Source: Streptantibioticus parmotrematis (lineage in GTDB: Bacteria; Actinomycetota; Actinomycetes; Streptomycetales; Streptomycetaceae). Taken from it: a stretch of DNA of 64,000 bases. Both the position numbers and the translations under genes were made by a program. The notes beneath the pieces were generated by a model. That model was given only the letters and a program-made list of their open reading frames with translations. It did not search any database and had not been told where the DNA came from. Positions 13,536 to 51,407 of this stretch are shown in pieces. Numbering within the stretch: the first letter of the stretch is position 1; each line of letters starts with the position of its first letter. The stretch spans positions 62,001-126,000 of the forward strand of contig NZ_JAINVZ010000005.1 of NCBI RefSeq assembly GCF_019890615.1. Reading direction: 5' to 3'.

Positions 13536-13552
13536 GGTCCCGGTCCCTTCCC

Positions 13553-13762
13553 TCACGCGGCCGAGGGGTCGTGCGGCCGCAGGCTCAGCGGGCGCATGTC
13601 GGTCCACACCCGGCCGATGTGGTCGAGGCACTCCTGCTTGACCCCGGTCACCCCCACCGGCTCCCATCCCTCGGGCGCGGGCCGGTCCTCGGGCCAGACG
13701 GAGTACTGGTGCTCGTGGTTGCGCACCACGGCGTAGCGGCGGTCGTCGCCGTCCTCGAACAT
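13553..13762 (-). CDS. MbtH-like NRPS accessory protein
   Basis: 69 residues from the ATG at 13762, chosen over an upstream GTG at 13786 because AAAGGA lies 10 bases before it. The full family signature is present: N-x-E-x-x-Y-S-x-W-P, then P-x-G-W near the middle, ending in the C-L-x-x-I and W-T-D-x-R-P-x-S-L pattern. MbtH proteins bind A domains and are needed for their solubility or activity. Its place directly before the free A gene suggests that protein as main client. A 74-base gap separates it from the thioesterase gene upstream, the largest gap inside the cluster, so an internal promoter there is possible. Confidence 0.93.
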   Translation of the reverse strand: MFEDGDDRRYAVVRNHEHQYSVWPEDRPAPEGWEPVGVTGVKQECLDHIGRVWTDMRPLSLRPHDPSAA

Positions 13763-13816
13763 GACACCAACGTCCTTTCTCGACACGGTCGTTCGTTGAA
13801 GTGCGGTAGGCGGGTT

Positions 13817-13836
13817 CCGGGGGCTCGGCGCCCCGG
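13817..13836 (-). terminator. Weak hairpin after the thioesterase gene
   Basis: CCGGGG (13817-13822) pairs with CCCCGG (13831-13836) immediately beyond the thioesterase stop, in the only sizeable gap (74 bases) of the operon. It may attenuate or partly end the upstream transcript; six pairs is weak evidence. Confidence 0.25.
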
Positions 13837-14582
13837 TCAGACGCTTTCGAGGAGTCGCGCGCCGATCAGCGACAGCAGTTCGGCGCCGCTCGGGCCCTCG
13901 TGGAAGAAGTGGTCACCGCGCAGCATGCGCAGCGTGAACTCGCCGGTGGTGTGCGTGCGCCACTGCGCGAGCTCCGCCTCGGAGACGGTGGTGTCCCCGG
14001 TGCCGCCGAACACACTGACCGGGAGGGCCAGGGGCGGCCGGTCCCGATGGCGGTAGGTGTAGTCCACCTCGAAGTCCGCCCGCATCGCCGGTTCCGCGAG
14101 GCGTACGAGTTCGGGCCGGGCCAGCACGTCGGCGGGCGTGCCGCCGAGCCCCGCCATCACGGTCATCAACTGCTCGGTCGGCAGCCGGTGGTAGGCCAGG
14201 CCGGCGCTGCCCAGTCGCGGCGCCCGGTGCGCGGCCACCATCAGCTCGCGCACCTCCCCGTCGGCACCGGCGTCCCGCAGACGGCAGGCCACCTCGTAGC
14301 CGATCAGCGACCCGAGGCTGTGCCCGAACAGCACGGCAGGGCGGTCGAGTTCGGCGGCGAGCACCTCCGCCAGCGCGTCGGCCAGCGGCTCCATCGCGGT
14401 GAACGGCGTCTCCCGCAGCCGCCCGGCCCGCCCCGGCAACTGCACGGCGCACACCTCGACGTCGTCCGGCAGTTCCCGGGACCACGAGCGGTACATCGCC
14501 GCCGTCGAGCCCGCGCCGGGCAGGCACAGCAGCCGCAGCCGCGCGTCGGGGCGCGCCGGGAAGCGCAGCAGCCACGGGTTCC

Positions 14583-14586
<4 letters not shown>
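13837..14586 (-). CDS. Type II thioesterase of the NRPS-PKS cluster
   Basis: 249 residues, alpha/beta hydrolase of the editing thioesterase family. The nucleophile is Ser90 in GHSLGS, and the catalytic His is 226 in GDHFF. The opening LLCLPGAGS and the MYRSW segment are typical of type II enzymes, which remove misloaded or stalled acyl groups from carrier domains. Because no cis thioesterase is present in the line, it could also contribute to release. The GTG start at 14586 overlaps the TGA of the upstream C-A-T gene (GTGA), so the two are co-translated. Confidence 0.9.
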
Positions 14587-17845
<3,259 letters not shown>

Positions 17846-17849
<4 letters not shown>

Positions 17850-20539
17850 ATCGTCCCCTTGTCGTCGGCGCCGGACGTGGTGGCGGTGGCGTCGAGCATC
17901 GTGAGCGTCTCCACGACGACGGCGGCGAACTCCGGGACGGTCGGGGCGTCGAAGATCGCCTCCATCGGCGGGCAGACCCCGAACGCGTCCTCGACCAGGC
18001 CCAGCAACTGCACGGCGGTCAACGAGTCGCCGCCCCGCTCGAAGAAGTCCAGCTCGTCGCCGCCTTCGCCGCCGAGCACCTTGTCGAACAGCGTCCGCAG
18101 CCGCTCCTCGACCGCCTCGGGCGACCGATCGGCCCCGGCGTCGAGCCCCGGACCGGCCACTGCCGGCGCCTCGCCGCTCGTGGCATCCGGTTCCCCCGCC
18201 GCGTCGTCGAAGGGCACGGGCCGTACGAGGTGGGTCTCGCGCTCGAACGGGTAAGTGGGGAGCGGAACCCGGTGGCGTGCGACGCCCTCGTGCAACCGCG
18301 TCCAGTCGACCGGCACCCCGGCCTGCCACAGGCGACCGAGCGCGTTGAGCACGGTGTCGGCTCCGTCGACGGGGGCGAGGTCCACCCGCAGGTGACGGGT
18401 GTCCGCCAAGGCGGCCGGCGCCTCCACCGTGGTGCGCAGCTCACGCTGCCAGAACTCCGCGTCGACGAGTTGACTGCCCGTCAATTCCTTTCCAGTGCCC
18501 GCATGAAGGACGGACACGGCGGGTGCCCGGCCGTCGCCGAGAAGGGCGAGACCGGCTTCGTGCCCGGTCGCGGCCCGTACGAGCAGGTCCAGCGCGTCGG
18601 ACAAGGCGAAGGCCCCGGCGCAGCACGCCGCCCCCAGCAGCCCGGCACCGTGCCCGACGACCGCCGCGGGGGCGACACCCCAGGCCGTCAGCAGCGTGGC
18701 GAAGCCGTATTCGACAACGAGCCGCGTCGCCCGTGCCGACTCCGGCGTGGCGACGGCACGCTCCGTCGCGTCGGCCAACGCCGGTGCGGTGTCGAGCAGT
18801 TCGGCCAGCGTACGGCCGAAGCGACCGGCGAACCACGGACCGACTCCGTCCACGATCGCGCGGAACGCCGGATGCGCCGCGCACAGCGCGCGGCCCAGCT
18901 CCAGGTGCCCGTCGACGTCACCGGCCCCGGCGGAACCGCCCGAGAAGACGAACGCCACCGGGGGCTCCGCGCCGGGCTCGGCGGCCCGTGCCACGACCGG
19001 CTCGGCGGTCAGCGCCGCCAGTGCCTCCGCGCGGCCGGAGCACACCGCGTAGCGTCGATACGGGAACGGGTGCCGGCCGCGCTGCAAGGTGTACGCGACG
19101 TCGGACAGCGACAACTCGGGCCGCTGCCGCAGGTGTTCGGCGAGCCCGGTCGTCATCGCGTCCAGCGCCTCGGGCGAGCGCGCCGAGAGCACCAGCAACG
19201 CCGCCTCGTGCGCCGCCCGCGGCGCGCTCGCGCCCGGCGCCTCCTCCAGCACCACGTGCGCGTTGGTCCCGCCGATGCCGAACGACGACACCCCGGCGCG
19301 GCGCGGCGTCGTGCCGTGCGCCTCCCACGCACGCCGCTCGGTGGCGACGGCGAACGGGCCGCCCGCGAAGTCGATGCCGGGGTTGGGGGAGTCGTAGTGC
19401 AACGTGGCCGGGATGGTCCGGTGCTCCAGGGCCAGCGCGGTCTTGATCAGCCCGGCGACACCGGCGGCGGTGTCCGTGTGCCCGATGTTGGTCTTCACCG
19501 ATCCCAGCGCCACCGACCCCTGCGGCAGCGACGGGCCGCCGAACGCCTGGGTCAGGGCGGACACCTCGATGGGGTCGCCGACCGGCGTCCCGGTGCCGTG
19601 CGCCTCCACGTACGAGATCGACGCCGGATCGACCTCGGCCGCCGCGTGCGCGACGCGGATGACCTCCGTCTGACCGCTGACACCGGGGGCGGTGAAACCT
19701 GCGCGTCGGCTGCCGTCGTTGTTCACCGCCGAGCCGCGGATCACGGCGTGCACGTGGTCCCCGTCGTCCAGCGCGTCCTGCAACCGCCGCAGCACGACCA
19801 CACCGGCGCCGTCACCGGCCACGATGCCTTTCGCGTCGGCGGAGAACGTACGGCAACGCCCGTCCGGCGACATCGTGCCGCCCTCCCGGTACCAGTAGCC
19901 CGCCCGGGGCACCCGCAGCGTCACACCACCGGCCAGTGCCATGTCGCACTCCCCGCCCAGCAGGGCCCGCGACGCCTCGTGGACCGCCACCAGCGAGGTC
20001 GAACAGGCCGTCATCACGGCCATGCTCGGGCCGGTCAGCCCCAGCTTGTACGACACACGGGACGCCAGGTGCTCGGGTTCGTTGGAGATGGCGAGCGCCA
20101 GGTCGTCCACACCGGGGAACCGGTCGGGCCGCTCCTGGACCACGGCCGTGTAGCCGTTGCGGCCCGCTCCCGCGTACACCCCCACGGTGCCCGGAGCCGC
20201 CAGCGGGTCGTAGCCCGCCCGCTCCAGCGCCTCCCACGCACACTCCAGGAACATCTGGTGCTGGGGGTTGAGCAACGTGGCGTCGCGCTCGGAGAAGTGG
20301 AAGAAGCCCGCGTCGAACTCGCCCACGCCGTCCACCACACCGTGCAGCGGCACGTACCGGGGATCGGCGAGCCGGGCCGGGTCCTGACCCCACTCGCGCA
20401 ACTCGTCGGGAGTGAGCGGGCGCACCGAGTCGACACCGGTGACGAGGTTGTGCCAGTACTCCTCGGGCGTGGACGCACCGGGAAGGCGGCAGGCCATCCC
20501 GACGATGGCGATGTGGGTGTCGTTGTCTTCGACCGTCAT
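17846..20539 (-). CDS. PKS, KS-degenerate AT-ACP
   Basis: 897 residues; ATG at 20539 with AAGGAC 9 bases upstream. The ketosynthase (about 8-435) is intact: Cys179 in TACSTS, His314 in EAHGTGT and His354 in KTNIGHT. It has the hybrid-type opening and GVYAGAGRNGY of KS domains that accept peptidyl chains. The following AT-like region (about 525-735) is broken. The GQGSQ box reads SGGSAG, the nucleophile motif is G-H-G-A-G (629-633) with no serine, and roughly 100 residues that normally carry the catalytic His are missing. The post-AT linker is kept, then an ACP with Ser839 in RGGDS. The module has no KR, DH or TE. It would extend the Leu-loaded chain by two carbons using malonyl delivered in trans. 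Confidence 0.93.
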
Positions 20540-20543
20540 GGGG

Positions 20544-23500
20544 TCAGTCCTTCGTGCCAAGGGGTTCGGCGATGGGGGAGGCCGCGCCGGCCGGGTCGGC
20601 GGCCCCGCGCTGCTGTGCGCGCATCGCCCGCAACCGGGCGTTGCCGCGCTTGAGGCGCTTCGCGGCGGGATCGTCCGCCGGAGCGCCGTCGGTCAGGGGT
20701 GTCGGACGCCCGGCCCCTTGGGCGGGCGCCCGCGTCGGCGAGCCGGTACGGTCACCGTCCGACGCGGTGAGGTGGCCGGCCAGCGACTCGATCGTGGGGT
20801 GTTCGAACAAGGTGAGGATCGCCAGCGGCCGGTCCAGCTCCCGCGCCAGGTGTTCGCGCACGGTCGCCAGCAGCATCGAGTGGCCGCCGATGTCGAAGAA
20901 GTTGTCGCGGACACCGAAGACATCGTGGCCCAGCGCCCGCGCCCACACGGCGGCCACCGTCCGCTCCATCGGACTCCGCGCGGCGCTGCCCGTCGCGGTC
21001 CCGGCGTCCAGCGGCACCGCGCCGTCCGCCAGCGCCGCCCGGTCCACCTTGCCGTTGGTGGTCAACGGGAAGGCGGGCAGCACGTAGTAGCGGTGCGGCC
21101 GCATGTAACCGGGCAGATGGCGACCCACGTGCTGGTTGAGCGCCTCGCGGTCCGGGGGAGCGGCTCCCTCGGCGAGCACGAGGTATGCGGTGAGTGTGGG
21201 TTCGCTTTGGTCTGTGGTGGTGGTTGTGGTGGTGATGGCGTCGTGGATGGTGGGGTGGTCGCGGAGGGTGTTCTCTATTTCTCCGGGTTCGATGCGGAAG
21301 CCGCGGATTTTGAGTTGGTGGTCGTTGCGGCCGAGGTAGTCGAGGGTGGTGTTGGTGTTCCAGCGGGCGAGGTCGCCGGTGCGGTAGAGGCGTTGTCCTG
21401 GTGTGGTGGTGTGGGGGTGGGGGATGAAGCGGTCGGCGGTGAGGTCGGGTCGGGTGAGGTAGCCGCGGGCGAGTTGGGGGCCGCCGAGGTAGAGCTCTCC
21501 GGGTACGCCGATGGGGACGGGGCGCAGGTCGGTGTCGAGGATGTAGACCTCCACACCCGGCAACGGACGCCCGATGTCCGGCAGACCGGCCGCGCCGTCG
21601 CCGTCGCTGGACACCGTGCCGGAGGTGGCGACCACCGTGCTCTCGGTCGGCCCGTAGTTGTTGACCAGACGGAACGGCCAGGACCGCCTCTCGGGGGTGC
21701 GCAGCCGGTCGCCGCCGGTGAGCACGGTGTGCGGAGCGCCGTCCGGCCAGGGAGCCCTCGCCATGCGCTCGATGAGCGGCGTGGGCACGAAGCAACTGGT
21801 CACCCGGTGCTCGGCCAGCCAGCGGGTCAGATCGCCGGGCGACAGGACGGTCTCCGCGTCGGGTACCTCCAGCGTGGCGCCCGCCGTGAGCGCCGACCAG
21901 ATCTCCCACGCCGACGCGTCGAAGCCCGGCGCCGCGATCATCGTCGCCCGGTCCTCGGGCCCGAGGCCGAACTCCTCGTGATGCCAGGCGACCAGGTGGG
22001 CCAGTCCACGGTGTTCGACCATCACGCCCTTGGGACGCCCGGTCGAGCCGGACGTGTAGATGACGTAGGCGAGGTCGGACAGGGCATCAATCGTGCCTGA
22101 TGCAGCGTCATGTCCAGTCGCGTATGCGGCAGTTACGGCCTCATCGACGTTCAGCACCGGACCGCTGACGAGGGGGGCGTGCGCACTGTCGGTCACCGTG
22201 CACAGCGGCCCGGCCTCGTCCAGGATCGCGTTCAGACGGGACGGCGGATGTGCCGGGTCGAGCGGCACGTACGCGGCGCCGCTGCGCAGGACGCCGAGGA
22301 CGGCCACGGCCAGGTCCGCGCCGCGCGGCAGGCAGACGGCGACCAGCCGCTCCGGCCCGGCACCCCGCTCGCGCAGCACGGTCGCCAACGCCTGTGCCTT
22401 GCGGTCGAGTTCGCCGTACGACAGCTCGACCCCCGCCTGCCGTACGGCGACGGACTCGGGCCTGTCCTTCGCGCGCCGCCGGACCGTCCGGTCGACGCGT
22501 TCGGCGCCGGGCGCGGGCGGACGCGTTCCGCCGGACAGCAACGCGCGCTCCTCGCGGCGGCCCAGGACCGGCAGAGCCGAGACGGGCGTGTCGGGCGCGG
22601 CGACGGAAGCCGACAGCAGACGCAGGTAACGCTCGCCGAGGAGACCGGCGGTCCGGGCGTCGAACAGGTCGGCGCGGTAGCCGGTGAAGCCCTCGACGCG
22701 CCCGGCTCCCCAGGCCATGTGCAGGGTGAGTTCGAACTTCGCGGTCTCGGTGCGCAACGGCACCGAGGAGGCGGCCAGCCCCGGCAGCACGGAGCCCTCG
22801 GCCGCCGTGTCCTCGTAGGTGAACGCGGCCTGGAACACCGGGTGGCGCGACGTCAGGCGCTCGGGCTGAAGTTCCTCGACCACCTGCTGGAACGGCAGGT
22901 CCTGGTACTCGTACCCGGCGAGGAAGGTGTCGCGGACGTGGTGCAGGAGCGCTCCGAACGTCATGTCGGGAGCGACGCGGATCCGCACCGGCAGCATGTT
23001 GACGAACAGCCCGACGACGTCCTCGACCTCCAGTGTGGTGCGCCCGCTGACCGGCACGCCCACCACGACCTCCTCGGACGAGGACAGCCGCGACAGCAGC
23101 GCCGCGTAGCAGCCGAGCAGCACCACGAAGCGCGTGACGCGGTGCCGCCGTGCCAACGCCTGGATCTCCTGGCCGAGTTGGGGCGAGGCCAGGAACGGCG
23201 CGCTGTCACCGGTGTGATCGGCGACGGGCGGGTGCGGCCGGTCGGTCGGCATGGTCAGCTGAGCCGGTGCGTCGGTCAGTTGCCGCCGCCAGTAGGACAG
23301 GGCCTCGGCCCTGCGCGGACCGCCGAGCATCCGCCGCTCGGCCGCCACGTAGTCCTCGTAGGCGTGCGGCGGATCGGGCAGCGGGTCGGGCGCTGCGTCG
23401 CGCCGGGCGGCGTACAGCGCCGCGAGTTCGCGTTCCACGATGCCCAGCGACCAGCCGTCGACCACGATGTGGTGGAAGGCGAGCAGCAGGATGTGGTCGT

Positions 23501-23888
23501 CCTCGGCGAGCCGGATCAGCCGCGCCCTGAACACCGGGCCGCCGGCCAGGTCGAACGGCTCCAGCGCGGCCCGGTTCACCTCCTCGTCGGCAGCCGTCGG
23601 ACGGGCCGTCGCCGGAAGGTCCGTGAGATCGGTGAGGGTCAGCGGCACCACGGCCCGTGCCGCGATCCGCATCACCGGGCCGCCGTCCACGACGGGGAAG
23701 GTGGCCCGCAGCGCGTCGTGCCGCTCGACCAGCCGTCCGATCGCCCACTCCAGCGCGGCGACGTCGAGCGCGCCGCGCAGCCTGGTGGCCTTGGGGACGT
23801 TGTACTCGCTGCCCTGCGGCCGCAGTTGCCAGAAGAACCAGAGCCGCTGCTGCGCAGAGGCCAGCGGTGACACGCGCTCGCCGGCCAT
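20544..23888 (-). CDS. NRPS, C-A-T module with Leu specificity
   Basis: 1114 residues; the ATG at 23888 is one base after the stop of the carrier-protein gene. Condensation domain about 8-450 with HHIVVDG at 139-145. Adenylation domain about 465-955 with YTSGSTGRPKG at 611-621, FDASAWE at 656-662 and NNYGPTE at 743-749. Carrier with Ser1004 in IGGHS. A basic, Ala/Pro-rich tail of about 75 residues may dock to the PKS. The pocket reads D-A-W-F-L-G-N-V-V plus Lys, identical to the canonical leucine code, so Leu is a strong prediction. Residues 771-902 lie in the 394-bp block shared with the Ser-like module. Next in line is the KS-ACP protein, so Leu would be extended to a 4-amino-3-oxo acyl unit. 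Confidence 0.94.
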   Translation of the reverse strand: MAGERVSPLASAQQRLWFFWQLRPQGSEYNVPKATRLRGALDVAALEWAIGRLVERHDALRATFPVVDGGPVMRIAARAVVPLTLTDLTDLPATARPTAADEEVNRAALEPFDLAGGPVFRARLIRLAEDDHILLLAFHHIVVDGWSLGIVERELAALYAARRDAAPDPLPDPPHAYEDYVAAERRMLGGPRRAEALSYWRRQLTDAPAQLTMPTDRPHPPVADHTGDSAPFLASPQLGQEIQALARRHRVTRFVVLLGCYAALLSRLSSSEEVVVGVPVSGRTTLEVEDVVGLFVNMLPVRIRVAPDMTFGALLHHVRDTFLAGYEYQDLPFQQVVEELQPERLTSRHPVFQAAFTYEDTAAEGSVLPGLAASSVPLRTETAKFELTLHMAWGAGRVEGFTGYRADLFDARTAGLLGERYLRLLSASVAAPDTPVSALPVLGRREERALLSGGTRPPAPGAERVDRTVRRRAKDRPESVAVRQAGVELSYGELDRKAQALATVLRERGAGPERLVAVCLPRGADLAVAVLGVLRSGAAYVPLDPAHPPSRLNAILDEAGPLCTVTDSAHAPLVSGPVLNVDEAVTAAYATGHDAASGTIDALSDLAYVIYTSGSTGRPKGVMVEHRGLAHLVAWHHEEFGLGPEDRATMIAAPGFDASAWEIWSALTAGATLEVPDAETVLSPGDLTRWLAEHRVTSCFVPTPLIERMARAPWPDGAPHTVLTGGDRLRTPERRSWPFRLVNNYGPTESTVVATSGTVSSDGDGAAGLPDIGRPLPGVEVYILDTDLRPVPIGVPGELYLGGPQLARGYLTRPDLTADRFIPHPHTTTPGQRLYRTGDLARWNTNTTLDYLGRNDHQLKIRGFRIEPGEIENTLRDHPTIHDAITTTTTTTDQSEPTLTAYLVLAEGAAPPDREALNQHVGRHLPGYMRPHRYYVLPAFPLTTNGKVDRAALADGAVPLDAGTATGSAARSPMERTVAAVWARALGHDVFGVRDNFFDIGGHSMLLATVREHLARELDRPLAILTLFEHPTIESLAGHLTASDGDRTGSPTRAPAQGAGRPTPLTDGAPADDPAAKRLKRGNARLRAMRAQQRGAADPAGAASPIAEPLGTKD
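21183..21576 (-). repeat. 394-bp direct repeat, copy in the Leu A domain
   Basis: Partner of 15039-15432 in the same orientation, about 6.1 kb away, with no difference found by eye over 394 positions. It begins just after the specificity-determining region, so the two modules keep different substrates while sharing the C-terminal subdomain. Confidence 0.93.
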
Positions 23889-23889
23889 G

Positions 23890-24336
23890 TCAGCGCCCGT
23901 TCCGCTCGGCACCGCCACCATGGGCCGCTGTCGCCGCGGCGGTCATCGCGTAGGCCGACAACTCGGCGATGGTCGGGCACTCGAAGAACGCGGCGAGCGG
24001 CACCTCGACCCGCAGCGCCTCGCGCATCCGGGAGATCACCTGCGACGCGGCCAGCGAGTGACCGCCCAGCTCGAAGAAGTCGTCGTCGGGACGCAGACCG
24101 TCAAGGCGCAGCACCTGCTCCCAGATCCGGGTGACCACCGGACGCACCGAGTCGTACGAGAGCGGTCCTCCGACCGAACTCGGCCCCGTGCCAGTGGCGT
24201 TCGCCGGCGCGGGGGAAGGAGACGTGGCGGACGAAGGGGTACCGCCGTCCGATGCGCCGCCGTTGCGGCCGTCCGGCTCGCGGAGCGGTGTGCGGTCGAC
24301 GGTGGCGCCGTCTGCGGTCTGCCCGTTGGACCTCAT
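23890..24336 (-). CDS. Free-standing peptidyl carrier protein, first gene of the NRPS-PKS operon
   Basis: 148 residues from an ATG at 24336 with a GAGGAAG ribosome site about 9 bases upstream. Residues 1-65 are low-complexity (Gly, Ser, Pro, Ala). Residues about 66-135 form a carrier domain with phosphopantetheine Ser94 in LGGHS. No A, C or TE domain is fused. By gene order it would hold the starter unit offered to the first condensation domain of the Leu module. What charges it is unknown: the free Thr-type A protein, or an enzyme outside the window, are possibilities. The disordered N-terminus may be a docking or A-domain contact region. Confidence 0.88.
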   Translation of the reverse strand: MRSNGQTADGATVDRTPLREPDGRNGGASDGGTPSSATSPSPAPANATGTGPSSVGGPLSYDSVRPVVTRIWEQVLRLDGLRPDDDFFELGGHSLAASQVISRMREALRVEVPLAAFFECPTIAELSAYAMTAAATAAHGGGAERNGR

Positions 24337-41687: not shown

Positions 41688-42872
41688 TCACCGCGCCGGG
41701 GCGAACGGCCCGGCACCGCTGAAGGCGTGCGCCGCGAAGCGCTCACCCATGCGGCGGTGGGTCGCCGCGTCCGGGTGGAGTGCGTCGGGCAGCGGTGACT
41801 CCGTGGCGTCGGCCGGGCCGTACAGCTCGCGGCCGTCCAGGTAGTGGATCGCGGGGTCGTCCGCCGATCGCTGCGCCACGATCCGCGCCAGCTCGTCACG
41901 GATCACGTTGAGCGTCAGCTTGCCCGCCGCGCGCTCCGCCGGGTCGCCCATCGCCTTGAACCGTGGCTGGTCGGTTCCGAACGTCTCCAGGTCCGGGGCG
42001 GACGGGCCCGGCGTGTCCTCGTGGATGGGGCACAGGATGGGGGAGACGACCAGCAGCGGTGTGGTGGGATGACCGTCGCGGATGGTGTCGAGGAAGCCGT
42101 GGACGGCCGGGGTGAAGGCGCGCAGCCGCATCAGGTCGGCGTTGACCACGTTGATGCCCAGCTTCAGGCTGATGAAGTCGGCGGGGGTGTCGCGCAGGGT
42201 GCGGGCGGTGAACGGGTCGAGCAGGGCGCAGCCGCCCAGGCCCAGGTTGATCAGTTCCACGCCGCCGAGACGAGCGGCGAGCGCGGGCCAGGTGGTGGTG
42301 GGGCTCTCGGCGTCCGAGCCGTGACTGATCGAACTCCCGTGGTGCAGCCAGACGTCGCGGCCCCGTTCGGGCGCGGGCCGCACGGGAGCGTCGGTGCGCA
42401 ACGCCACGAGTTCGGCGGTCTCGTTGTGCGGCAGCCAGATCTCCACGTCCTTCTCGCGGTCCGGCAGCCCGGTGAACCGCAACGTGCCGATCGGGCCGGG
42501 CCGTTGCTCCATGGTGCCCGCGGCCATGTCGATGGTCAGCACGTTGCCGTCGGACACACTGTCGCGCGCGGTCGGCTCGCCGTCGACCAGCAGTTCGTAG
42601 AGGCCGTCGGGGCGGGGCGGCACGCCCGTGTAGACACGTTTGGTGGCCAGCACGTCGAGTTCGACGGCGGTGGCCGCGGTGCGGAAGACCAGCCGGACGC
42701 CGGACGGCTGGCTCTCCACCATGGCCAGCTGCGGATCGGTGTACTGGGCGCGGGCCCAGGCGGGCAGCCGGTGCGGCAGCACACCGCGCTCGGTGCGTTC
42801 CAGGTCGAGGGCGCCGCGCACGGTGTCGGAGGTGATGGGGGTGGTGGTCCAGTCGTGCTCGGTGGCGTGCAT
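41688..42872 (-). CDS. SGNH/GDSL-type esterase with N-terminal beta domain
   Basis: 394 residues. The N-terminal 170 residues look like the beta-sandwich found before SGNH domains of carbohydrate esterases (family-2-like). The catalytic part has block I G-S-S-I-S-H-G-S-D near residue 180, a Gly block (NLGLGG), an Asn block (KLGINVVN), and the C-terminal D-A-L-H-P-D with the catalytic Asp and His. It probably removes acetyl or other acyl groups from sugars. No signal peptide was seen. It follows the TetR gene by 41 bases and is likely its regulated partner. Confidence 0.85.
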   Translation of the reverse strand: MHATEHDWTTTPITSDTVRGALDLERTERGVLPHRLPAWARAQYTDPQLAMVESQPSGVRLVFRTAATAVELDVLATKRVYTGVPPRPDGLYELLVDGEPTARDSVSDGNVLTIDMAAGTMEQRPGPIGTLRFTGLPDREKDVEIWLPHNETAELVALRTDAPVRPAPERGRDVWLHHGSSISHGSDAESPTTTWPALAARLGGVELINLGLGGCALLDPFTARTLRDTPADFISLKLGINVVNADLMRLRAFTPAVHGFLDTIRDGHPTTPLLVVSPILCPIHEDTPGPSAPDLETFGTDQPRFKAMGDPAERAAGKLTLNVIRDELARIVAQRSADDPAIHYLDGRELYGPADATESPLPDALHPDAATHRRMGERFAAHAFSGAGPFAPAR

Positions 42873-42913: not shown

Positions 42914-43483
42914 TCAGGAGGCGGGCCAGTTGCGCAGCGTGGCGTCGAGGGCGTCGATGATCCGTGGCCAGGTCTCCCGCGGGTCCGGAGCGCTGTGGTC
43001 GAAGCTGCCGGCCAGCTCCAGGCTGACGTAGCCGTGGAAGACGCTGCCCAGCAGGCGGACCGCGTGGGTCTGGTCGGGCTCGGCCAGGTCGTAGCCACGC
43101 AGGATGGCCCGGCTCATCCGCGCGTGCCGCACGCCCGCGCTGGCTGCCGCCGTCCCGGGGTCGAGTGGCATCCGCATCGCGGCGTAGCGCCCGGGATGCT
43201 CGCGGGCGTAGTCGCGGTAGACGCCGGCGAAGGCGGCCAGGGCGTCCTTGCCTGCCCGGCCGGCCAGCGCGTCGGCCGCCCGGTCGGCGAGTTCCTCCAG
43301 GGCGAGCAGGGCGATCCTGGTCCTGAGGTCCTGCGAGTTCTTCAGGTGGGAGTACAGGCTGGCGACCTTGACGTCGAACCGCCTGGCCAGCGCGGAGACG
43401 GTGACCTGGTCGAAGCCGACCTCGTCGGCCAGCTCCGCCCCCGCGAGCGTCAGGCGCTCGGCGGTGAGTCCGGCGCGGGGCAT
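42914..43483 (-). CDS. TetR-family regulator
   Basis: 189 residues from the ATG at 43483 with GGAGGAGGA close upstream. The helix-turn-helix at about 22-55 (FDQVTVSALARRFDVKVASLYSHL) is typical. The C-terminal part resembles the WHG-type ligand domain (AREHPGRYAAMRMPLDPG, and VFHGYVSLE). It should repress its own promoter, which carries a matching palindrome, and the co-directional SGNH hydrolase gene 41 bases downstream. Confidence 0.9.
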   Translation of the reverse strand: MPRAGLTAERLTLAGAELADEVGFDQVTVSALARRFDVKVASLYSHLKNSQDLRTRIALLALEELADRAADALAGRAGKDALAAFAGVYRDYAREHPGRYAAMRMPLDPGTAAASAGVRHARMSRAILRGYDLAEPDQTHAVRLLGSVFHGYVSLELAGSFDHSAPDPRETWPRIIDALDATLRNWPAS

Positions 43484-43512
43484 GGTCCTCCTCCCGTTCG
43501 ATGGCATCACCG

Positions 43513-43599: not shown

Positions 43600-44928
43600 C
43601 TACGCGTCGACCCGCGCCCGCTGCTCGCTGACGCGTGCGGTCGGGCGCGGCCACCGGATCTGGGTCGCGCACAACGAGACGATGCCCGCCGAGACCGCCA
43701 CCGCGCCCAGCCCCCACACCAGGCCGGTGGCGTTCGCTATGAACCCGATGACCGGGGGGCCGCCCAGCAGCCCCGTCGTCCCCATGGCCGCGACCAGCGT
43801 CAGCACGTCGGAGCCCTGTCCGGCCGCCGCCACGTAGACGCACGGGGTGACGGCGGCGATGCCGAGCCCGACGCAGGCGAACCCGGCCAGCGCGGGCACC
43901 ACGCCACCGCTCAGCAGCGCCAGTGCCAGTCCCACGCCCGCCAGCGCGCTGCCGAGCCGGACGATCGGCCCGTCGCCCCAGCGGTCGCGCCAGCCGTCCG
44001 CGAAGAGCCGGGCCACGACCATCATGCAGGAGACGACCGCGATGCCCATCGGCGCCAGTTCCGCCGACGCCTTCGCCACGTCCTTCAGGTAGAGGGCGGA
44101 CCAGTCGTTCATCGCGCCCTCGGTGACGGTGCCGAACGCCATCGCGCAGCACATCCACAGCGTCATCCGCGACGGAAGCGACCAACGGGTGCGCCGCCGC
44201 GCGCCGTTGGCGGTCGCCGCGTCGGTCACCCCGGCGGCGTCCGTCTCCCCGGCGGCGTGGGGCTTTGCCTCGTCCCCCGTCAGCAGGCCGGAGCGCGCGT
44301 ACCCGGCGAGCGCCAGCAGGAGGACGGTGGCGACCCCGAAGTGCACGGCGACCGTGGACGTCATGGCGTTCATGCCGGAGGCCAGCAGCGCGGCGAACAA
44401 CGACCCGCCGCTGAACGTGGCGTGGAGTTTCGCCATGGCGTTGCGCCCGTGCCGGACCTCCAGCGCCGCGCCCTGGGCGTTCATGGCCACGTTGAGGCAT
44501 CCCACCAGCACCCCGTCGCACGCCATCACCACCAGCGCGACCGGGTAGTCGGGCGCGGCGGCCAGCACGAGCAGCAGCAGGGCCAGGCACACCGCGGAAC
44601 CGAGCGCCAGACGCCGCGAGCCGAGCCGTCTCATCAGCATGGCGACCAGGGGGAACGACGCCGCCGCACCCACGCCCGTGGCCATCAGCAGCAGACCGAC
44701 CTCGGCGGTGGTCAGACCCAGGTGCGCCTTGATCGACGGCAGCCGCGACGCCCAGGTGGCGTACTGGAAGCCCAGCGAGCAGAACAGCGCGGCGATGGCC
44801 AACTGCCCCTTGCGGAAGGGGTCGTTCGGGCGCCACATGCGGATCAGTCCCTCTCTCGTCGGGCCGACGGCCGTGCCGTCGGCCCGTGTGCCGGCGGCAC
44901 GCGTGCCGGTGTCTCCCGTGCCGCTCAC
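43600..44928 (-). CDS. MFS transporter, last gene of the PhyH operon
   Basis: 442 residues with about twelve hydrophobic segments and a charged central loop (about 215-250). Motif-like segments MRRLGSRR after helix 2 and the overall pattern match the YbjJ/fucose-type major facilitator group. The GTG start at 44928 overlaps the stop of the GNAT gene (GTGA), so it is coupled to the five-gene operon and probably exports its product. Confidence 0.87.
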   Translation of the reverse strand: MSGTGDTGTRAAGTRADGTAVGPTREGLIRMWRPNDPFRKGQLAIAALFCSLGFQYATWASRLPSIKAHLGLTTAEVGLLLMATGVGAAASFPLVAMLMRRLGSRRLALGSAVCLALLLLVLAAAPDYPVALVVMACDGVLVGCLNVAMNAQGAALEVRHGRNAMAKLHATFSGGSLFAALLASGMNAMTSTVAVHFGVATVLLLALAGYARSGLLTGDEAKPHAAGETDAAGVTDAATANGARRRTRWSLPSRMTLWMCCAMAFGTVTEGAMNDWSALYLKDVAKASAELAPMGIAVVSCMMVVARLFADGWRDRWGDGPIVRLGSALAGVGLALALLSGGVVPALAGFACVGLGIAAVTPCVYVAAAGQGSDVLTLVAAMGTTGLLGGPPVIGFIANATGLVWGLGAVAVSAGIVSLCATQIRWPRPTARVSEQRARVDA

Positions 44929-45452
44929 ACCGCCGCTCCCGTCACGATCTCCACCGGCACCGGCCGCGACATGTACCGCGCCCCCGGCCCGTAGCCCTCC
45001 GGCGGCGCCACGTCGGGGTGCGCGGTGAAGCCCCGGCCCGCCCAGAAGGGCGCGCTGTCGCCGACCGCCACGAGGGAGACCGTCGCGAATTCGTGAGACC
45101 GCGCTGTCGCGAACAGACGACCCAGGAGCGCCGTCGCCAGCCCGGAACCGCGCAGGTCCTCGGCGACGACGAGGTCGTGCAGGTGGAGGTTGCCGGTGCG
45201 CGCCACGGTGCTCTCGGCGCGCGTCAGGTCGGGGTACCGGAACATCGGGTACGGCAGCGCCAGTAGGTATCCGGCAGCGCGTTCGCCGACGTCCAGCACG
45301 AAGCAGGTGGCCGGCGACGCCTTGACCCGGGACTCCAGCGCGGCCCGGCCCTCCGACAGACCGAGCGGGGTGTACGCGGCGGACTCCAGGGCGACGATCG
45401 TGTCCCAGTCGCCGCCGCGCACGTGCCGCACCCGTGGTGCGTGCGAGGTCAA
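44925..45452 (-). CDS. GNAT-family N-acetyltransferase in the PhyH operon
   Basis: 175 residues. The start is TTG at 45452, overlapping the decarboxylase stop (TTGA) with GGGAGG 6 bases upstream; no other start preserves the N-terminal strand. The acetyl-CoA loop is L-H-D-L-V-V-A-E-D-L-R-G-S-G-L-A, and the VSLVAVGDSAPFWAGRGF segment completes the fold. It probably acetylates the amine made by the preceding decarboxylase, or gives self-protection against the product. Confidence 0.85.
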   Translation of the reverse strand: MTSHAPRVRHVRGGDWDTIVALESAAYTPLGLSEGRAALESRVKASPATCFVLDVGERAAGYLLALPYPMFRYPDLTRAESTVARTGNLHLHDLVVAEDLRGSGLATALLGRLFATARSHEFATVSLVAVGDSAPFWAGRGFTAHPDVAPPEGYGPGARYMSRPVPVEIVTGAAV

Positions 45453-46714
45453 CGCGGGCCTCCCGCGCAGGCGGTGACGTCGTCGATCCGCTCCGGCCGG
45501 CGCGGCGGAGGCACGCGGTCGGACGGCAGGCAGACGAGCGGAAGCGGGCTGAAGCCGTTGAACCCGCGCGTCATGTAGCTCGTCGCGTAGGCGCCGCTCG
45601 CAAGGATCCACACCGGGTCGCCCGAGGCGACCGCGCCGGGCACCTCCACGAGGCCGTGGTCGTGGGAATAGGCGTCGTCGCTGTCGCAGGTCGGACCGGC
45701 CACCACGGCGGACACGGCATCGGCGCCCAGGTGCGTGGGGAAGACCAGGCGGTACTGGAGCGCGTCCATCTCGTACAGGCCGTTGAACTTGCCGCAGCTC
45801 AGGTAGAGCCAGTGCGCGCGCGCCCCGTCCTGCCGCTCGCGTGAGGTCAGGCGCAGGACGTGGGCCCTGATGGCGCCGTGGTCGGCGACGAGGTGGCGGC
45901 CGGGTTCGATGAGGAACGCCAGGCGGCGGCCCGCCACCCGCGTCAGCCGCCGCATGCCCTGCCGGACGGCGGCGAAGATCTCGTCCAGCGGCGGTTCCAG
46001 CGGCGTTCCCCACTGGTCGAGGTAACCGGCGGCGGGCAGCCCGCCGCCCAGGTTGATGTGATCGAGGAGGATCCCCCGCCGGTCAAGCGCCGTCAGGACG
46101 TCCGCCAGCCGGTCGCACGCGTCGTCCCACGCCTCGGCGGTCATCTGCTGCGATCCCACGTGGACGGAGAGCCCCGAAGGCGTCAGGCCCAGGTCGCGTG
46201 CCCGCTCCAGGACGCGCACGGCGTCACCCGCGGAGCAGCCGAACTTGTGGCTGAGCCCCCACAGCGCGCCCTTCCCGTCCGTGGCGAGCCGGCAGAAGAC
46301 CCGGGCGCCCGGCGCGTGCGCCGCGATGGCCTCGACGTCCTCCAAGCTGTCGGTGGCGAAGTCCCGTACCCCCAGCCGGTGGGCGTGGGCGATGTCGCGG
46401 TCGGACTTGATGGTGTTGCCGTAGTGGACGCGTTCGACCGGCACACCGGTGCGCAGCGCGTGCGCGATCTCCTGCGGACTGGCCGCGTCCACCCCCGAGC
46501 CCCGGCGTGCCAGGCAGGTCAGCACTTCGTCGACGGGGCACGCCTTCATCGCGAACCGCACGGACACACCGGGCAGTTCGCGCACCAGGTTCGCGTAGGC
46601 GGCCTCGACGCCCGCGAGGTCGTAGACCAGGCGGTCCCCGGGGGCGTCCGCGAGCGCGCGGTGCAGCCGGGAGCCGGGCGGGGGCGTGGTGGCTGTCACC
46701 GGCGGGGTGCGCAC
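45449..46714 (-). CDS. PLP-dependent (fold III) basic amino acid decarboxylase
   Basis: 421 residues from a GTG at 46714 that overlaps the previous gene by 19 bases. Motifs of the ornithine/lysine/DAP decarboxylase family: PLP lysine K57 in FAMKACP, HVGSQ at 185-189, GGG at 223-225, EPGR at 270-273, the active-site Cys343 in PTCDSDD, and the C-terminal GAYATSYMTRGFNGF. The C-D-S-x-D form and F-N-G-F ending favour ornithine/lysine-type over diaminopimelate-type enzymes. It would decarboxylate a basic amino acid, perhaps already hydroxylated by the PhyH enzyme of the same operon. The exact substrate is not known. Confidence 0.87.
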   Translation of the reverse strand: MRTPPVTATTPPPGSRLHRALADAPGDRLVYDLAGVEAAYANLVRELPGVSVRFAMKACPVDEVLTCLARRGSGVDAASPQEIAHALRTGVPVERVHYGNTIKSDRDIAHAHRLGVRDFATDSLEDVEAIAAHAPGARVFCRLATDGKGALWGLSHKFGCSAGDAVRVLERARDLGLTPSGLSVHVGSQQMTAEAWDDACDRLADVLTALDRRGILLDHINLGGGLPAAGYLDQWGTPLEPPLDEIFAAVRQGMRRLTRVAGRRLAFLIEPGRHLVADHGAIRAHVLRLTSRERQDGARAHWLYLSCGKFNGLYEMDALQYRLVFPTHLGADAVSAVVAGPTCDSDDAYSHDHGLVEVPGAVASGDPVWILASGAYATSYMTRGFNGFSPLPLVCLPSDRVPPPRRPERIDDVTACAGGPR

Positions 46715-48006
46715 GGGCTCACCTTCCTGCTCGCGTCCACCATCGGCCCCCACGCCTCCATCAGGAGGGCGAAGTCCTCGGTGTCCTGACGGGCCTCGCG
46801 CAGCAGGCGTTCCCGCTCCGCGGCGACGTGCTCCGCGAACCGCGCGTACTTGCCGCCGAGTTTGCGGTAGGCCGCTTCGAGCACGTCCAGCCGGTGGGCG
46901 TTGTCGGCCTGGTCGAGCCCGGTGCTCTCGCGCACGAACCCGGCGACGACCTCCGCGCGCACCTCGCCGCGCTCGTCCAGCAGCGCGGAACCGGCCTCGG
47001 CCATGCGGTCGTAGGCGAAGTTGAGGTACAGCATGGAGAGCAGGAACTTCACGTACCGGGTCTGGTACGCGGTGAAGCCCGCCCCGGTCCTGCGCTCGGG
47101 CGTGTAGTAGTTGACGATGTCGCGGTTGTGCAGCACGCCGGGGAGCGTCGCGTCGTGGACGACGTGGATCAGGAAGTAGTCGCTGCCGATGGTGTCGGTG
47201 GCGGGCGGCAGCGGTATGCGTTCGTGAACGCGGTGGAAGGCGATGTTGCACATGTCGACCCGCATCGGGTCGACCAGCCCGAGGACCGTGTGGTCCGCCG
47301 TGAACACCGCGTCGCCCGCGCCCCGGAACGACTCCGCGACCAGCTCCCGCTTCTGCCGCTCGGACCAGTCGAGCGGGGCCCACAGGCTCACCACGTCGTG
47401 GTAGACGTCCGGGTCGAGGCGCTGGATCTCCCCGATGTCGACGGACAGCTCGCCCACGAACGAACCACCCACCATGGCGACCGGCTTGTCGGCGTGGGCC
47501 GCGTCCAGCGTGCTGTCCGAGACCAGCGGCGCCACGTCGGACGCCCGCCGGCCCAGGGCCATCAGCTCCGGATGTACGGGGAACACCGGTGAGCCGTCGG
47601 CCACTTGGTAGCGGCTGTCGGAGTCCCTGCGGTGCACCGACTCGCATCCCAGCGCGGCGGCCAGCAGGAACGCCCGGTTGGTGCAGGCGCCGTAGGACAG
47701 CCGGTCGGGCAGCATGAGGTCGAGCAGCAGATCGGGCTTCGCCACGCCCGCCTCGTCGATCACCCGGCGCAGGAAGTCCCGCTGGTCCGCCTCCCCGACG
47801 TGGTGGGCGACGACACCGGGCACCGCGGGCAGCTCACGCACCGCGCGGGCGTGCTCGGCGAAGACGTCCCCCTCGCTGGAGTCCAGCACCAGCAGGTGCA
47901 CCTCGACGTCGAAGTGGCGCACCGCGTACGCGGCCTCCTCGCCCAGCGTCGCGATGGTGGACGCGCACGCCCTGTTGGTGGGAAGGGTCAGACAGATTCG
48001 GCGCAT
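46696..48006 (-). CDS. DUF6271-like protein of unknown function
   Basis: 436 residues; starts inside the end of the PhyH gene (19-base overlap). The N-terminal MRRICLTLPTNRACASTI with later LLVLDSSEGD resembles a nucleotide-sugar or Rossmann-like strand pattern. A mid-section has Y-G-A-C-T-N-R-A-F-L-L-A-A-A-L-G with H-R-R-D-S-D and a VGGSFVGELSVDIG segment, which together recall a glycosyltransferase-A fold with an acidic metal site. I recognise it as the family usually labelled DUF6271 in streptomycetes, from memory only. The conserved D-S-D may bind metal. No function is established; it is the least understood member of this operon. Confidence 0.65.
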   Translation of the reverse strand: MRRICLTLPTNRACASTIATLGEEAAYAVRHFDVEVHLLVLDSSEGDVFAEHARAVRELPAVPGVVAHHVGEADQRDFLRRVIDEAGVAKPDLLLDLMLPDRLSYGACTNRAFLLAAALGCESVHRRDSDSRYQVADGSPVFPVHPELMALGRRASDVAPLVSDSTLDAAHADKPVAMVGGSFVGELSVDIGEIQRLDPDVYHDVVSLWAPLDWSERQKRELVAESFRGAGDAVFTADHTVLGLVDPMRVDMCNIAFHRVHERIPLPPATDTIGSDYFLIHVVHDATLPGVLHNRDIVNYYTPERRTGAGFTAYQTRYVKFLLSMLYLNFAYDRMAEAGSALLDERGEVRAEVVAGFVRESTGLDQADNAHRLDVLEAAYRKLGGKYARFAEHVAAERERLLREARQDTEDFALLMEAWGPMVDASRKVSPCAPRR

Positions 48007-49052
48007 ATCCGCTCCCCGTCCACCACGTCGTCCTCCCGGCCCCAGGACTCCAGCCCGAGCAGCCTGGCGCCCAGGCCGTCGAGACGGGCGGTGCCGTACC
48101 TGAGGGACTCGTGCTTCCTGGCGTCGCCCAGCAGCGTCCGGTTCCAGTCCGGCGTGCTCAGGTGGCGCCAGGAGTCGACCCGGGAGTCCCGGAGCGTCCG
48201 GTGGGATTCGATCGCGGGCATCATCGACAGGTACTGCACCGCCCGCACGCCGTCGCGCGAGGTGTTGGGGGCGACGCCGTGGGCCAGCAGTCCGTTCCAG
48301 ATCAGCAGGTCGCCCGCCTTCAACTGCGGCCGCACGATGGGGAGTTCATCACGGTCGAAGGCCGGCCGGATCGGGTCGCGGTCGTCCGGCTGGAGCGCCC
48401 GCCACCGCTCGAACTGGCGGAACAGCTCCGGCGCGCACTGGAAGCCGCCGTGGTCCTCCTCGGTGTCGTTGAGGGCGATGATGCCCTGCACCCGCTGCGG
48501 CAGGACACCGAGGGAGGTGTCGACGTCCCAGTGCAGCTCGATGTCGAAGCCCTTGTCCGTCGGCTCGATCAGCGCGCGGTCGCGGTTCTTGACGTTGGGC
48601 GGGTTGAGGTTGAGCCGGTCGAGGGTCACCCACAGCTCCTCGCAGTCCCACACGTCCACGAACGCGTCGTACACCCGGCGCGCCTGACGGCTGTCCCACA
48701 GCAACTGGTGGTGGTACGCCTCGACGAAGCCGTAGACGTACAGGTCCCGGTCGAGGTCGGACCGGAAGGCGCGCTCCTCGTACCAGGTCTCGGGGCGCTC
48801 CGGGTCCAGGCCCTGGAAGTCCCACGCGAAGTCCAGCATGCGCTGCGCGGCGGCGGTGGGGATCGCCTGTTTGACGACGACGTAGCCGTAGGTCTGCCAG
48901 AAGGCGAAGTCCTCCTCGGACAGCACCCGCAGCTCTTGCCGCTTGCGCAGGTCACGCAACTGCGTCTGCGCCAGGTAGGTGTCGCCGTCCGAGCTGAAGT
49001 AGGGGACGTCCGAGGCGGCCCGATACAAGTAGCTGCTGTCAAGCGCCCGCAT
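47988..49052 (-). CDS. Phytanoyl-CoA dioxygenase (PhyH)-family Fe(II)/2-oxoglutarate oxygenase
   Basis: 354 residues from the ATG at 49052 with GAGGAG 7 bases upstream. Iron ligands are H174 and D176 in ELHWDVD and H258 in NGLLAHG; R270 is placed to bind 2-oxoglutarate. The D-L-L-I-W-N-G-L-L-A-H-G-V-A-P-N block is typical of PhyH enzymes from natural-product pathways. It should hydroxylate or otherwise oxidise a small substrate, plausibly a basic amino acid given the decarboxylase in the operon. First gene of five tightly overlapping genes. Confidence 0.87.
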   Translation of the reverse strand: MRALDSSYLYRAASDVPYFSSDGDTYLAQTQLRDLRKRQELRVLSEEDFAFWQTYGYVVVKQAIPTAAAQRMLDFAWDFQGLDPERPETWYEERAFRSDLDRDLYVYGFVEAYHHQLLWDSRQARRVYDAFVDVWDCEELWVTLDRLNLNPPNVKNRDRALIEPTDKGFDIELHWDVDTSLGVLPQRVQGIIALNDTEEDHGGFQCAPELFRQFERWRALQPDDRDPIRPAFDRDELPIVRPQLKAGDLLIWNGLLAHGVAPNTSRDGVRAVQYLSMMPAIESHRTLRDSRVDSWRHLSTPDWNRTLLGDARKHESLRYGTARLDGLGARLLGLESWGREDDVVDGERICAESV

Positions 49053-49370: not shown

Positions 49371-49386
49371 AATGGACTAGACCAAC
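49371..49386. promoter_or_regulatory. DasR-like (dre) palindrome, distal
   Basis: AATGGACTAGACCAAC matches the TGG-N-CTAG-N-CCA core of DasR-responsive elements (core 49373-49384). It lies 319 bases from the PhyH start and 510 from the GH3 start, so its target is uncertain. Confidence 0.55.
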
Positions 49387-49811: not shown

Positions 49812-49827
49812 ATTGGACTAGGCCAAT
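49812..49827. promoter_or_regulatory. DasR-like (dre) palindrome upstream of the GH3 gene
   Basis: ATTGGACTAGGCCAAT has perfect ATTGG/CCAAT arms around CTAG. It lies 68 bases before the GH3 start, which fits control of an N-acetylglucosaminidase by DasR, the regulator of N-acetylglucosamine use in streptomycetes. Confidence 0.65.
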
Positions 49828-49895
49828 ATCCCGATGGTCTGTACCAATGCGCGGCGCGGTGATCGATGCCTCGGCACTACCGGAAGGCCCAGCTG

Positions 49896-51407
49896 ATGTC
49901 CTGGAGCAAACACAGCAAGGAGTTGCGACGTCTCGCGCTCTCCGTCCTTCAGCCGGGCTTCGTCGGGACCGAGGCGCCGGACTGGGTGTTGCGGGACATC
50001 GCCGACGGCCTGTCGTCCGTCGTGCTCTTCTCGCGCAACATCGCCTCCCCCCAGCAGGTGAGTCGGCTCACCGCCCAACTGCGCGCCCGGAACCCCGAGT
50101 TGATCATCGCGATCGACGAGGAGGCCGGCGACGTCACCCGCATCGAGTCGTCGACCGGATCCTCGCGCCCCGGCAACTTCGCGCTCGGCGCCGTCGACGA
50201 CGCCGAGCTGACCGAGTCGGTCGCCCAGGACCTCGGCCGCCAGCTGCACGCCGCCGGGGTGAGCCTGGACTACGCGCCGAGCGTGGACGTCAACTCCAAC
50301 CCCGACAACCCGATCATCGGCGTCCGCTCCTTCGGGGTGGACCCCAAGCTGGTGTCCCGACACGCCGCCGCCTGGATCCGCGGTCTTCAGGCCTCCGGAG
50401 TCGCGGCCTGCGCCAAGCACTTCCCCGGCCACGGCGACGTCGCCGTGGACTCCCACCACGGGCTGCCGCATTACGAGGCGAGCCTCGACCAGATCCAGGA
50501 GCAGGCGCTGCCGCCGTTCCGCGCCGCCCTGGAGGCGGGCGTGCGCGCGGTGATGAGCGGTCATCTGCTCGTTCCGGCCTACGACCCCGACCTGCCCGCC
50601 ACCCTCAGCCGCCGCGTCCTGATCGACCTGCTGCGCGGCGAACTCGGCTTCGACGGCCTGATCGTCACCGACGCCATCGAGATGGGGGCGGTCACCGGCC
50701 TGTACGGGATCGGCGGCGCCACGGTCAGGGCCGTCGTCGCCGGGGCCGACGCCATCTGCGTGGGCGGCGAGACCGCGGAGGAGTCCACCGTCGACCTGCT
50801 CGCCGGCGCCCTGCTGGACGCGGTCGCCGACGGAACCCTGCCGGAGGAGCGCCTGCGCGACGCGGCCCGCCGGGTGGGGGAGTTCGCCGACTGGTCGACC
50901 CGGCTGGGCCAGGCCGCCCCCGTCGACCCGGTCAGCGGGGACATCGGGTTCGTCGCCGCCCGCCGTGCCATCCGCACCAGCGGCGCCGCCGGTGACGCCC
51001 TCCCGCTCCAGGACCCGCCGCACGTCGTGGAGTTGGTGCCCTCCACCAACCTCGCCATCGGCAAGGAGACCCCGTGGGGCGTCGCCATGCCGTTGCGCGA
51101 ACGGCTGCCCGGCACGACGTTCGTACGCGTCCACGCCACCCAACTCGACCGGGAGTCGAAGGCGTTGGAGGAGTACGCGCTGCTCCCCGCGAAGGACCGC
51201 CCGCTGGTCGTCGTGGTGCGGGACGCCTCCCGGCACGCCTGGATGAGCCGGGCGCTGGCGGACCTGGTGACGGCGCGCCCCGACGCGATCGTGGTCGAGA
51301 TGGGCCTGCCGGTGCCGACCGCCCCGGCCGCGGCCCAGATCTTCACCAACGGCGCCACGGCCGCGTCCGGGGTGGCCGCGGCGGAGGTCCTGGCGGGCAC
51401 CCGGTAG
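49896..51407 (+). CDS. Glycoside hydrolase family 3 beta-N-acetylhexosaminidase (NagZ-like)
   Basis: 503 residues from the ATG at 49896, preferred over one at 49866 because GGAAGG lies 8 bases before it. The GH3 N-terminal domain carries the NagZ signatures IAIDEEAGDVTRI, KHFPGHGDVAVDSHHGLP (with the Asp/His acid-base dyad) and VTDAIEMGAV with the nucleophile Asp. A C-terminal domain of about 170 residues follows, as in longer actinobacterial enzymes. It cleaves terminal beta-linked N-acetylglucosamine from chitin- or murein-derived sugars. No signal peptide, so it is probably cytoplasmic. The upstream dre-like site fits DasR control. Confidence 0.9.
   Translation: MSWSKHSKELRRLALSVLQPGFVGTEAPDWVLRDIADGLSSVVLFSRNIASPQQVSRLTAQLRARNPELIIAIDEEAGDVTRIESSTGSSRPGNFALGAVDDAELTESVAQDLGRQLHAAGVSLDYAPSVDVNSNPDNPIIGVRSFGVDPKLVSRHAAAWIRGLQASGVAACAKHFPGHGDVAVDSHHGLPHYEASLDQIQEQALPPFRAALEAGVRAVMSGHLLVPAYDPDLPATLSRRVLIDLLRGELGFDGLIVTDAIEMGAVTGLYGIGGATVRAVVAGADAICVGGETAEESTVDLLAGALLDAVADGTLPEERLRDAARRVGEFADWSTRLGQAAPVDPVSGDIGFVAARRAIRTSGAAGDALPLQDPPHVVELVPSTNLAIGKETPWGVAMPLRERLPGTTFVRVHATQLDRESKALEEYALLPAKDRPLVVVVRDASRHAWMSRALADLVTARPDAIVVEMGLPVPTAPAAAQIFTNGATAASGVAAAEVLAGTR

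Follow-up and report, generated by a model that had tools for sequence, protein, structure and literature searches.

A conserved five-gene cassette of PhyH, DUF6271, decarboxylase, GNAT and MFS genes associated with DasR-type operators and das genes in actinomycetes

The cassette and its conservation

The window analysed here comprises 64,000 nucleotides (nt) of Streptantibioticus parmotrematis (NZ_JAINVZ010000005.1), and all coordinates count from its start. It contains a block of five minus-strand genes encoding a PhyH-family oxygenase, a protein of the DUF6271 family, a pyridoxal-phosphate (PLP)-dependent decarboxylase, a GNAT acetyltransferase and a transporter of the major facilitator superfamily (MFS), together with a divergently oriented gene for a glycoside hydrolase of family GH3 and three putative operator sites (Table 1). 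A first-pass annotation had placed a five-gene set at 43600-49052 and had described it as a route without nonribosomal peptide synthetase (NRPS) or polyketide synthase (PKS). All five open reading frames were confirmed, their families were matched by Pfam, and no adenylation (A), condensation (C), ketosynthase (KS) or carrier domain was detected by Pfam in the five proteins. The overlaps of 19, 19, 4 and 4 nt given in that annotation stood in part. The PhyH and DUF6271 genes overlap by 19 nt, and an in-frame start is equivalently placed in 59 of 77 loci. The second overlap is more likely 4 nt (GTGA) than 19 nt, because 59 of 70 loci share GTG 46699 as the start position; the alternative start GTG 46714 would give the 19-nt overlap. 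The 4-nt overlaps of the decarboxylase with the GNAT gene and of the GNAT with the MFS gene are possible in the window, and the starts there differ among loci.

Table 1. Genes and putative operator sites of the cassette region (positions in the window).
Feature	Position	Strand	Support
PhyH-family Fe(II)/2-oxoglutarate oxygenase, gene 1	47988..49052	-	PF05721, E 6e-12
DUF6271 protein, GT-A glycosyltransferase-like, gene 2	46696..48006	-	PF19787, E 2e-237, 788 bits against a cut-off of 25
PLP-dependent fold-III amino acid decarboxylase, gene 3	45449..46699	-	Orn_Arg_deC_N PF02784, E 1e-41
GNAT N-acetyltransferase, gene 4	44925..45452	-	PF00583, E 1e-9; position kept in ~70 loci
MFS transporter, probable exporter, gene 5	43600..44928	-	MFS_1 PF07690, E 6e-22; last gene of the block in ~70 loci
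GH3 beta-N-acetylglucosaminidase, DasD paralogue, divergent partner	49866..51407	+	PF00933
DasR/HutC-type putative operator TGGTCTAGTCCA, upstream of PhyH	49373..49384	-	exact match
Second operator-like site TGGCCTAGTCCA, GH3 side of the divergent promoter	49814..49825	-	also in L073/L095
Third operator-like site TGGTACAGACCA, 19 bp upstream of the GH3 start	49835..49846	-	

DUF6271 is present in 124 of the 392 genomes searched within the order. For comparison, 63 loci were taken from a genome scan and 20 were added from further genomes. The gene order PhyH-DUF6271-decarboxylase-GNAT-MFS is kept in ~70 of these loci with largely unrelated flanks, and roughly a fifth to a quarter of the soil Streptomyces sampled have the set. 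The loci are distributed over the six genera Streptomyces, Actinacidiphila, Kitasatospora, Actinokineospora, Actinospica and Kibdelosporangium. The decarboxylase occurs in 84 of 385 genomes with 86 copies, 78 of which lie at most 500 bp from DUF6271. Since the order recurs in this way and nearly all decarboxylase genes adjoin DUF6271, the five-gene grouping is far beyond chance. The genes behave as a unit of one pathway, as had been proposed, and the set is conserved well beyond the source strain; a housekeeping role of the decarboxylase, with which that proposal would have fallen, does not fit an enzyme that is restricted to 84 of 385 genomes and nearly always adjoins DUF6271. DUF6271 finds no mention in the open literature library searched, and searches for DUF6271, for DasR together with phytanoyl-CoA dioxygenase and for nagstatin/allosamidin clusters returned no description of the operon in that library (a DokD paper listed as a match concerns an unrelated assay and was discarded).

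DasR-type operators and linkage to the das genes

The DasR-responsive element (dre) has the consensus A(G/C)TGGTCTAGACCA(G/C)T (PMC4398421). Of 80 loci, 61 have a site with no more than one mismatch to the dre core in the 450 bp upstream of PhyH, and none appeared in 400 shuffles. Outside this region, 1.43 Mb of sequence from these loci held just 16 sites of this kind, mostly within the dasR-dasA promoter region of das-linked loci. In the 7.4-Mb genome of S. parmotrematis the cassette operator TGGTCTAGTCCA has six copies (0 for the reversed control), located at the cassette itself, in front of three GH18/CBM chitinase genes, in front of a GH18-like gene whose signature was judged by eye and has no Pfam match, and on the das contig. 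Moreover, TGGTGTAGACCA sites precede the phosphotransferase system (PTS) genes EIIC/EIIB. Nearer to the GH3 gene, sites similar to TGGCCTAGTCCA are found in three further loci (L078, L084 and L107), and a TGGT[AT][CT]AGACCA-type site occupies the place equivalent to the third site in many loci.

The second tie to chitin utilization is the gene neighbourhood. DasD, an N-acetylglucosaminidase under DasR control, cleaves chitobiose after its import (PMC6167110, PMC12370203). The divergent GH3 protein is 55.6% identical to the DasD of the same genome, and the NagZ catalytic motif KHFPGHGDxxxDSH is present in 48 of 49 GH3 members; against the NCBIfam beta-N-acetylhexosaminidase model it scores 189 bits, under the cut-off of 207, as does the genome's own DasD (175). 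Of the 44 genomes with the paralogue, 34 have it no more than 3.5 kb away from DUF6271, and DUF6271 is present in 38 overall (Fisher p 2e-15). Furthermore, the cassette lies directly behind the das genes (dasR-dasABCD) in seven loci (L066, L075, L085, L089 and L103-L105); the identities there are 68-70% to DasD for the GH3 protein, 58-60% for dasA and, where included, 74-75% for dasR. In one locus (L076) the das genes, the GH3 paralogue and the cassette all occur together. Conservation and regulation of the cassette are thus well supported computationally, on several independent computations.

Other neighbours of the cassette were considered as well. The TetR gene (42914-43510, minus strand) and the GDSL-like esterase gene (41688-42872, minus strand) downstream of the block are missing from other loci beyond the close relatives L073/L095 and were not counted as members. 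A separate NRPS/PKS hybrid cluster with C, A, carrier, KS and acyltransferase (AT) domains and a luciferase-like monooxygenase lies at 8776-23921 on the minus strand, ~20 kb from the cassette. In three das-linked loci, L066 (14334-17432), L085 and L103, SbnA/SbnB-like and TauD-like genes adjoin the cassette, which suggests nearby synthesis of 2,3-diaminopropionate. As a hint to the substrate the SbnA/SbnB-like genes were set aside, since they are restricted to these loci and are in convergent orientation.

Predicted activities of the encoded proteins

In a 17-sequence alignment of PhyH, residues H173, D175, H257 and R269 are invariant, corresponding to the HxD...H metal triad and the 2-oxoglutarate-binding Arg, and the motif HWD[IV]D is present in 80 of 80 family members. 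More distant PhyH relatives were seen in other surroundings: a relative from Agrobacterium (43%) overlaps a gene with a DxD-type motif that appears GT-A-like by eye, and relatives with 43-45% identity stand beside carbamoyltransferase and MFS genes in two loci on Streptomyces and Agrobacterium plasmids (L130 and L132).

The nearest PDB sequence to the decarboxylase is the lysine/ornithine decarboxylase of Vibrio (2plj, E 2e-33). All 71 members have an Asp immediately after the catalytic Cys (P[TS]CD). In ornithine decarboxylase, the Asp that follows the catalytic Cys faces the distal amine of the substrate, and the Cys-Asp pattern of the cassette enzyme resembles that of enzymes acting on amino acids with a distal amine. 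A search against NCBIfam yielded no equivalog for the decarboxylase, every match being far below its cut-off.

A PDB sequence search with DUF6271 and PhyH gave nothing useful, and the only Pfam family reported for the DUF6271 protein is DUF6271 itself. Its AlphaFold model, built from a 42-sequence alignment, reached a predicted local distance difference test (pLDDT) score of 94.5, and Foldseek matched this model in the PDB best to MtdL, a GDP-fucose mutase of family GT75 (E 5e-9, template modelling score (TM) ~0.5, 15% identity), followed by glycosyltransferases of the GT-A fold; a viral structure library returned generic glycosyltransferases only. The HRRDSD motif, which provides the DXD-type metal motif of this fold, is present in 79 of 80 members. 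The glycosyltransferase-like fold that had been guessed for this protein thus gains support from a confident model. In ~15 genomes the DUF6271 matches contain one internal TGA, probably due to a match extending past the normal stop. A DUF6271-like protein with 25% identity was observed in L135 (415-8912) together with DegT aminotransferase-like, kinase-like, GT2-like and asparagine-synthase-like genes, all annotated by eye.

Interpretation and comparison with known systems

Gene content, conservation, operator, das linkage and the DUF6271 fold are supported by computation; DasR binding itself, the substrates, the sugar donor, the order of the reactions and the product are inferred. The explanation that we favour, with modest confidence, is a DasR-controlled, chitin-responsive cassette by which an amino acid is probably hydroxylated, glycosylated, decarboxylated, acetylated and exported. 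Repression of the shared divergent promoter probably lies with DasR or with a HutC-type repressor that uses the same operator, and upon chitin breakdown the rise in N-acetylglucosamine (GlcNAc)-6-phosphate would allow expression of both the DasD-like GH3 enzyme, predicted to split chitobiose, and the five-gene operon. PhyH would hydroxylate a free amino acid that most likely carries a second amine, and DUF6271 as a metal-dependent GT-A enzyme would transfer a sugar, perhaps GlcNAc from UDP-GlcNAc, onto the hydroxylated amino acid. The ornithine/lysine-type decarboxylase and the GNAT protein would convert an amino acid to an acetylated amine, and the MFS protein would export the product. A hydroxylated, decarboxylated and perhaps acetylated amine had been proposed as the product type in the first-pass annotation. 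Because both the position of the cassette and its operator sequences tie it to the chitin system, the small molecule is probably made during feeding on fungal or insect chitin.

Several observations weigh against this explanation. The counts of loci and genomes come from related genomes and do not represent independent events. The cassette operator differs by one base from the 12-bp dre core, with a T where the canonical core has an A, so that another HutC-family regulator could bind it instead of DasR, and no site immediately preceding PhyH was detected in several das-linked loci, L066, L085 and L103-L105 among them. The predicted structure of PhyH has a pLDDT of 41, too weak for a fold search. 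Finally, the GH3 paralogue is present without DUF6271 in 6 of 44 genomes, and in a genome lacking DUF6271 (G100) it follows a chitinase-like gene (locus L142), which favours a catabolic role; the GH3 enzyme may act in catabolism, in processing or in protection, perhaps purely in the first.

The alternative that fares best, although we regard it as unlikely, is that two independent modules, PhyH with DUF6271 and the decarboxylase with GNAT, make two parts that are joined later, rather than forming a linear route. Each pair indeed occurs without the other. In a second context, PhyH and DUF6271 are found with a condensation-domain protein, a different MFS protein, a divergent amino acid:[carrier protein] ligase, a carrier protein and a phosphopantetheinyl transferase; the ligase matches NCBIfam PRK07080 below the NCBI cut-off, and in L106, L109 and L112 the condensation domain is in one continuous reading frame with DUF6271. 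On a plasmid of Streptomyces clavuligerus (L114, 12889-20647) the order PhyH-DUF6271-condensation-MFS is followed by a split transketolase, and on plasmids of Apilactobacillus kunkeei a distant DUF6271 homologue with the HRRDSD motif (L116, 14016-15251) stands beside an aminoacyl-tRNA-synthetase-like amino acid:[carrier protein] ligase, a carrier, an MFS protein and a split transketolase, in a cluster that also has two ATP-grasp ligases, an aminotransferase and a methyltransferase. The transketolase genes that accompany DUF6271 in S. clavuligerus, in L100 and in Apilactobacillus belong to this second context and were rejected as parts of the cassette. The PhyH protein of the window is 69-76% identical to members of both DUF6271 contexts, and the PhyH step is therefore probably common to both. 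A further PhyH and DUF6271 pair without the remaining genes was seen in L115. Conversely, decarboxylase-GNAT pairs without DUF6271 adjoin a glutamine-synthetase-like gene with gamma-glutamylputrescine synthetase as its best NCBIfam match, below cut-off, which supports an amine product. In L176 (G228) the decarboxylase lies beside another PhyH, an E1/transketolase-like pair, KS and AMP-binding genes (11727-15821), and DUF6271-GNAT follows on that contig at a distance of ~21 kb. That the gene pairs occur as modules is compatible with a linear route as well as with the joining of two parts; the latter is opposed by the lack of an obvious joining ligase among the five genes, unless GNAT acts as such.

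It is improbable, in our judgment, that the cassette makes an antimicrobial or an inhibitor of hexosaminidase or chitinase directed against competitors during chitin feeding, with the DasD paralogue serving as a resistant spare target. The duplicate of a housekeeping enzyme in divergent position beside the cassette, the nearly constant presence of a dedicated exporter and the known control of antibiotic genes by DasR (PMC4398421) would agree with this role, whereas das-linked loci usually do without an extra copy, the cassette lying behind dasD itself, and the six genomes with the paralogue and without DUF6271 do not fit it. A related proposal, that the das operon of many actinomycetes carries a weapon or signal module whose glycosylated, acetylated amine is released only during chitin digestion, with the duplicated DasD for self-protection or processing, is likewise improbable.

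Improbable as well is the assignment of DUF6271 as a GT75-like NDP-sugar pyranose/furanose mutase, with PhyH and the amine enzymes acting on its furanosyl product. Besides the top rank of MtdL among the fold matches, the layout of the metal and diphosphate motifs speaks for it: in MtdL, His287 and Arg289 hold the metal and the diphosphate (PMC9937993), and the invariant H292 and R294 of DUF6271 show the same H-x-R spacing. However, the sequence identity is only ~15%, no RGP/GT75 match was obtained with Pfam, the remaining fold matches are ordinary GT-A transferases, and a conserved Arg at the spacing of the nucleophile Arg159 of MtdL, judged by position only, is not seen in the DUF6271 alignment. 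The last point tentatively favours a transferase over a mutase. A search of 148 genomes within the order yielded no GT75 member that could have served for a profile comparison.

That a mobile cassette landed near the das genes by accident and the operator was copied along would agree with the varying flanks outside the das-related genes among lineages, but is very unlikely in view of two separate das linkages, by the divergent paralogue and at the tail of the das operon, and of the DasR-type sites also present in the second PhyH and DUF6271 context. Overall, the first-pass annotation was borne out in the pathway unit and the glycosyltransferase-like fold and had overlooked the DasR-type operators, the paralogue of DasD, the location behind the das operon in a subgroup and the context with the amino acid:[carrier protein] ligase.

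Under the favoured explanation of a chitin-responsive route, the link to chitin sensing points to chitin, chitobiose or GlcNAc as a concrete induction condition under which to look for the product. DUF6271, so far a domain of unknown function, thereby gains a testable function. The cassette also bears on how Streptomyces species couple the sensing of food to secondary metabolism, for which DasR is a known though incompletely explained link.

The closest known system is DasABC/DasD with the DasR regulon of Streptomyces coelicolor, with which the cassette shares a nearly identical operator core, a DasD-paralogous GH3 enzyme and, in a subgroup, the position behind dasABCD. While the das genes are catabolic and import chitobiose, the cassette adds biosynthetic genes and an exporter, an attachment for which no description was found in the papers searched. 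DUF6271 resembles MtdL (PMC9937993) in the GT-A fold and in the layout of the DXD and H-x-R motifs, and differs from it in the points raised above: low identity, no Pfam RGP match and no evident equivalent of Arg159. Amino acid:[carrier protein] ligase systems (PRK07080) are mirrored by the ligase and carrier protein of the second context, whereas the ligase is absent from the cassette of the window. With the fold-III lysine/ornithine decarboxylases (2plj, 5gjm) the cassette enzyme has in common the context of the catalytic Lys and Cys and the Asp after the Cys, but its CGKFNGLYEMD-type specificity loop differs from these PDB relatives. Desferrioxamine is made by a small NRPS/PKS-independent amine pathway consisting of a decarboxylase, an oxygenase and an acyltransferase. 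The cassette follows the same logic of decarboxylase, oxygenase, acyltransferase and export; unlike desferrioxamine-type pathways, however, it uses a PhyH enzyme in place of a flavin oxygenase, contains a GT-A protein and no synthetase gene, and is linked to the chitin instead of the iron regulon.

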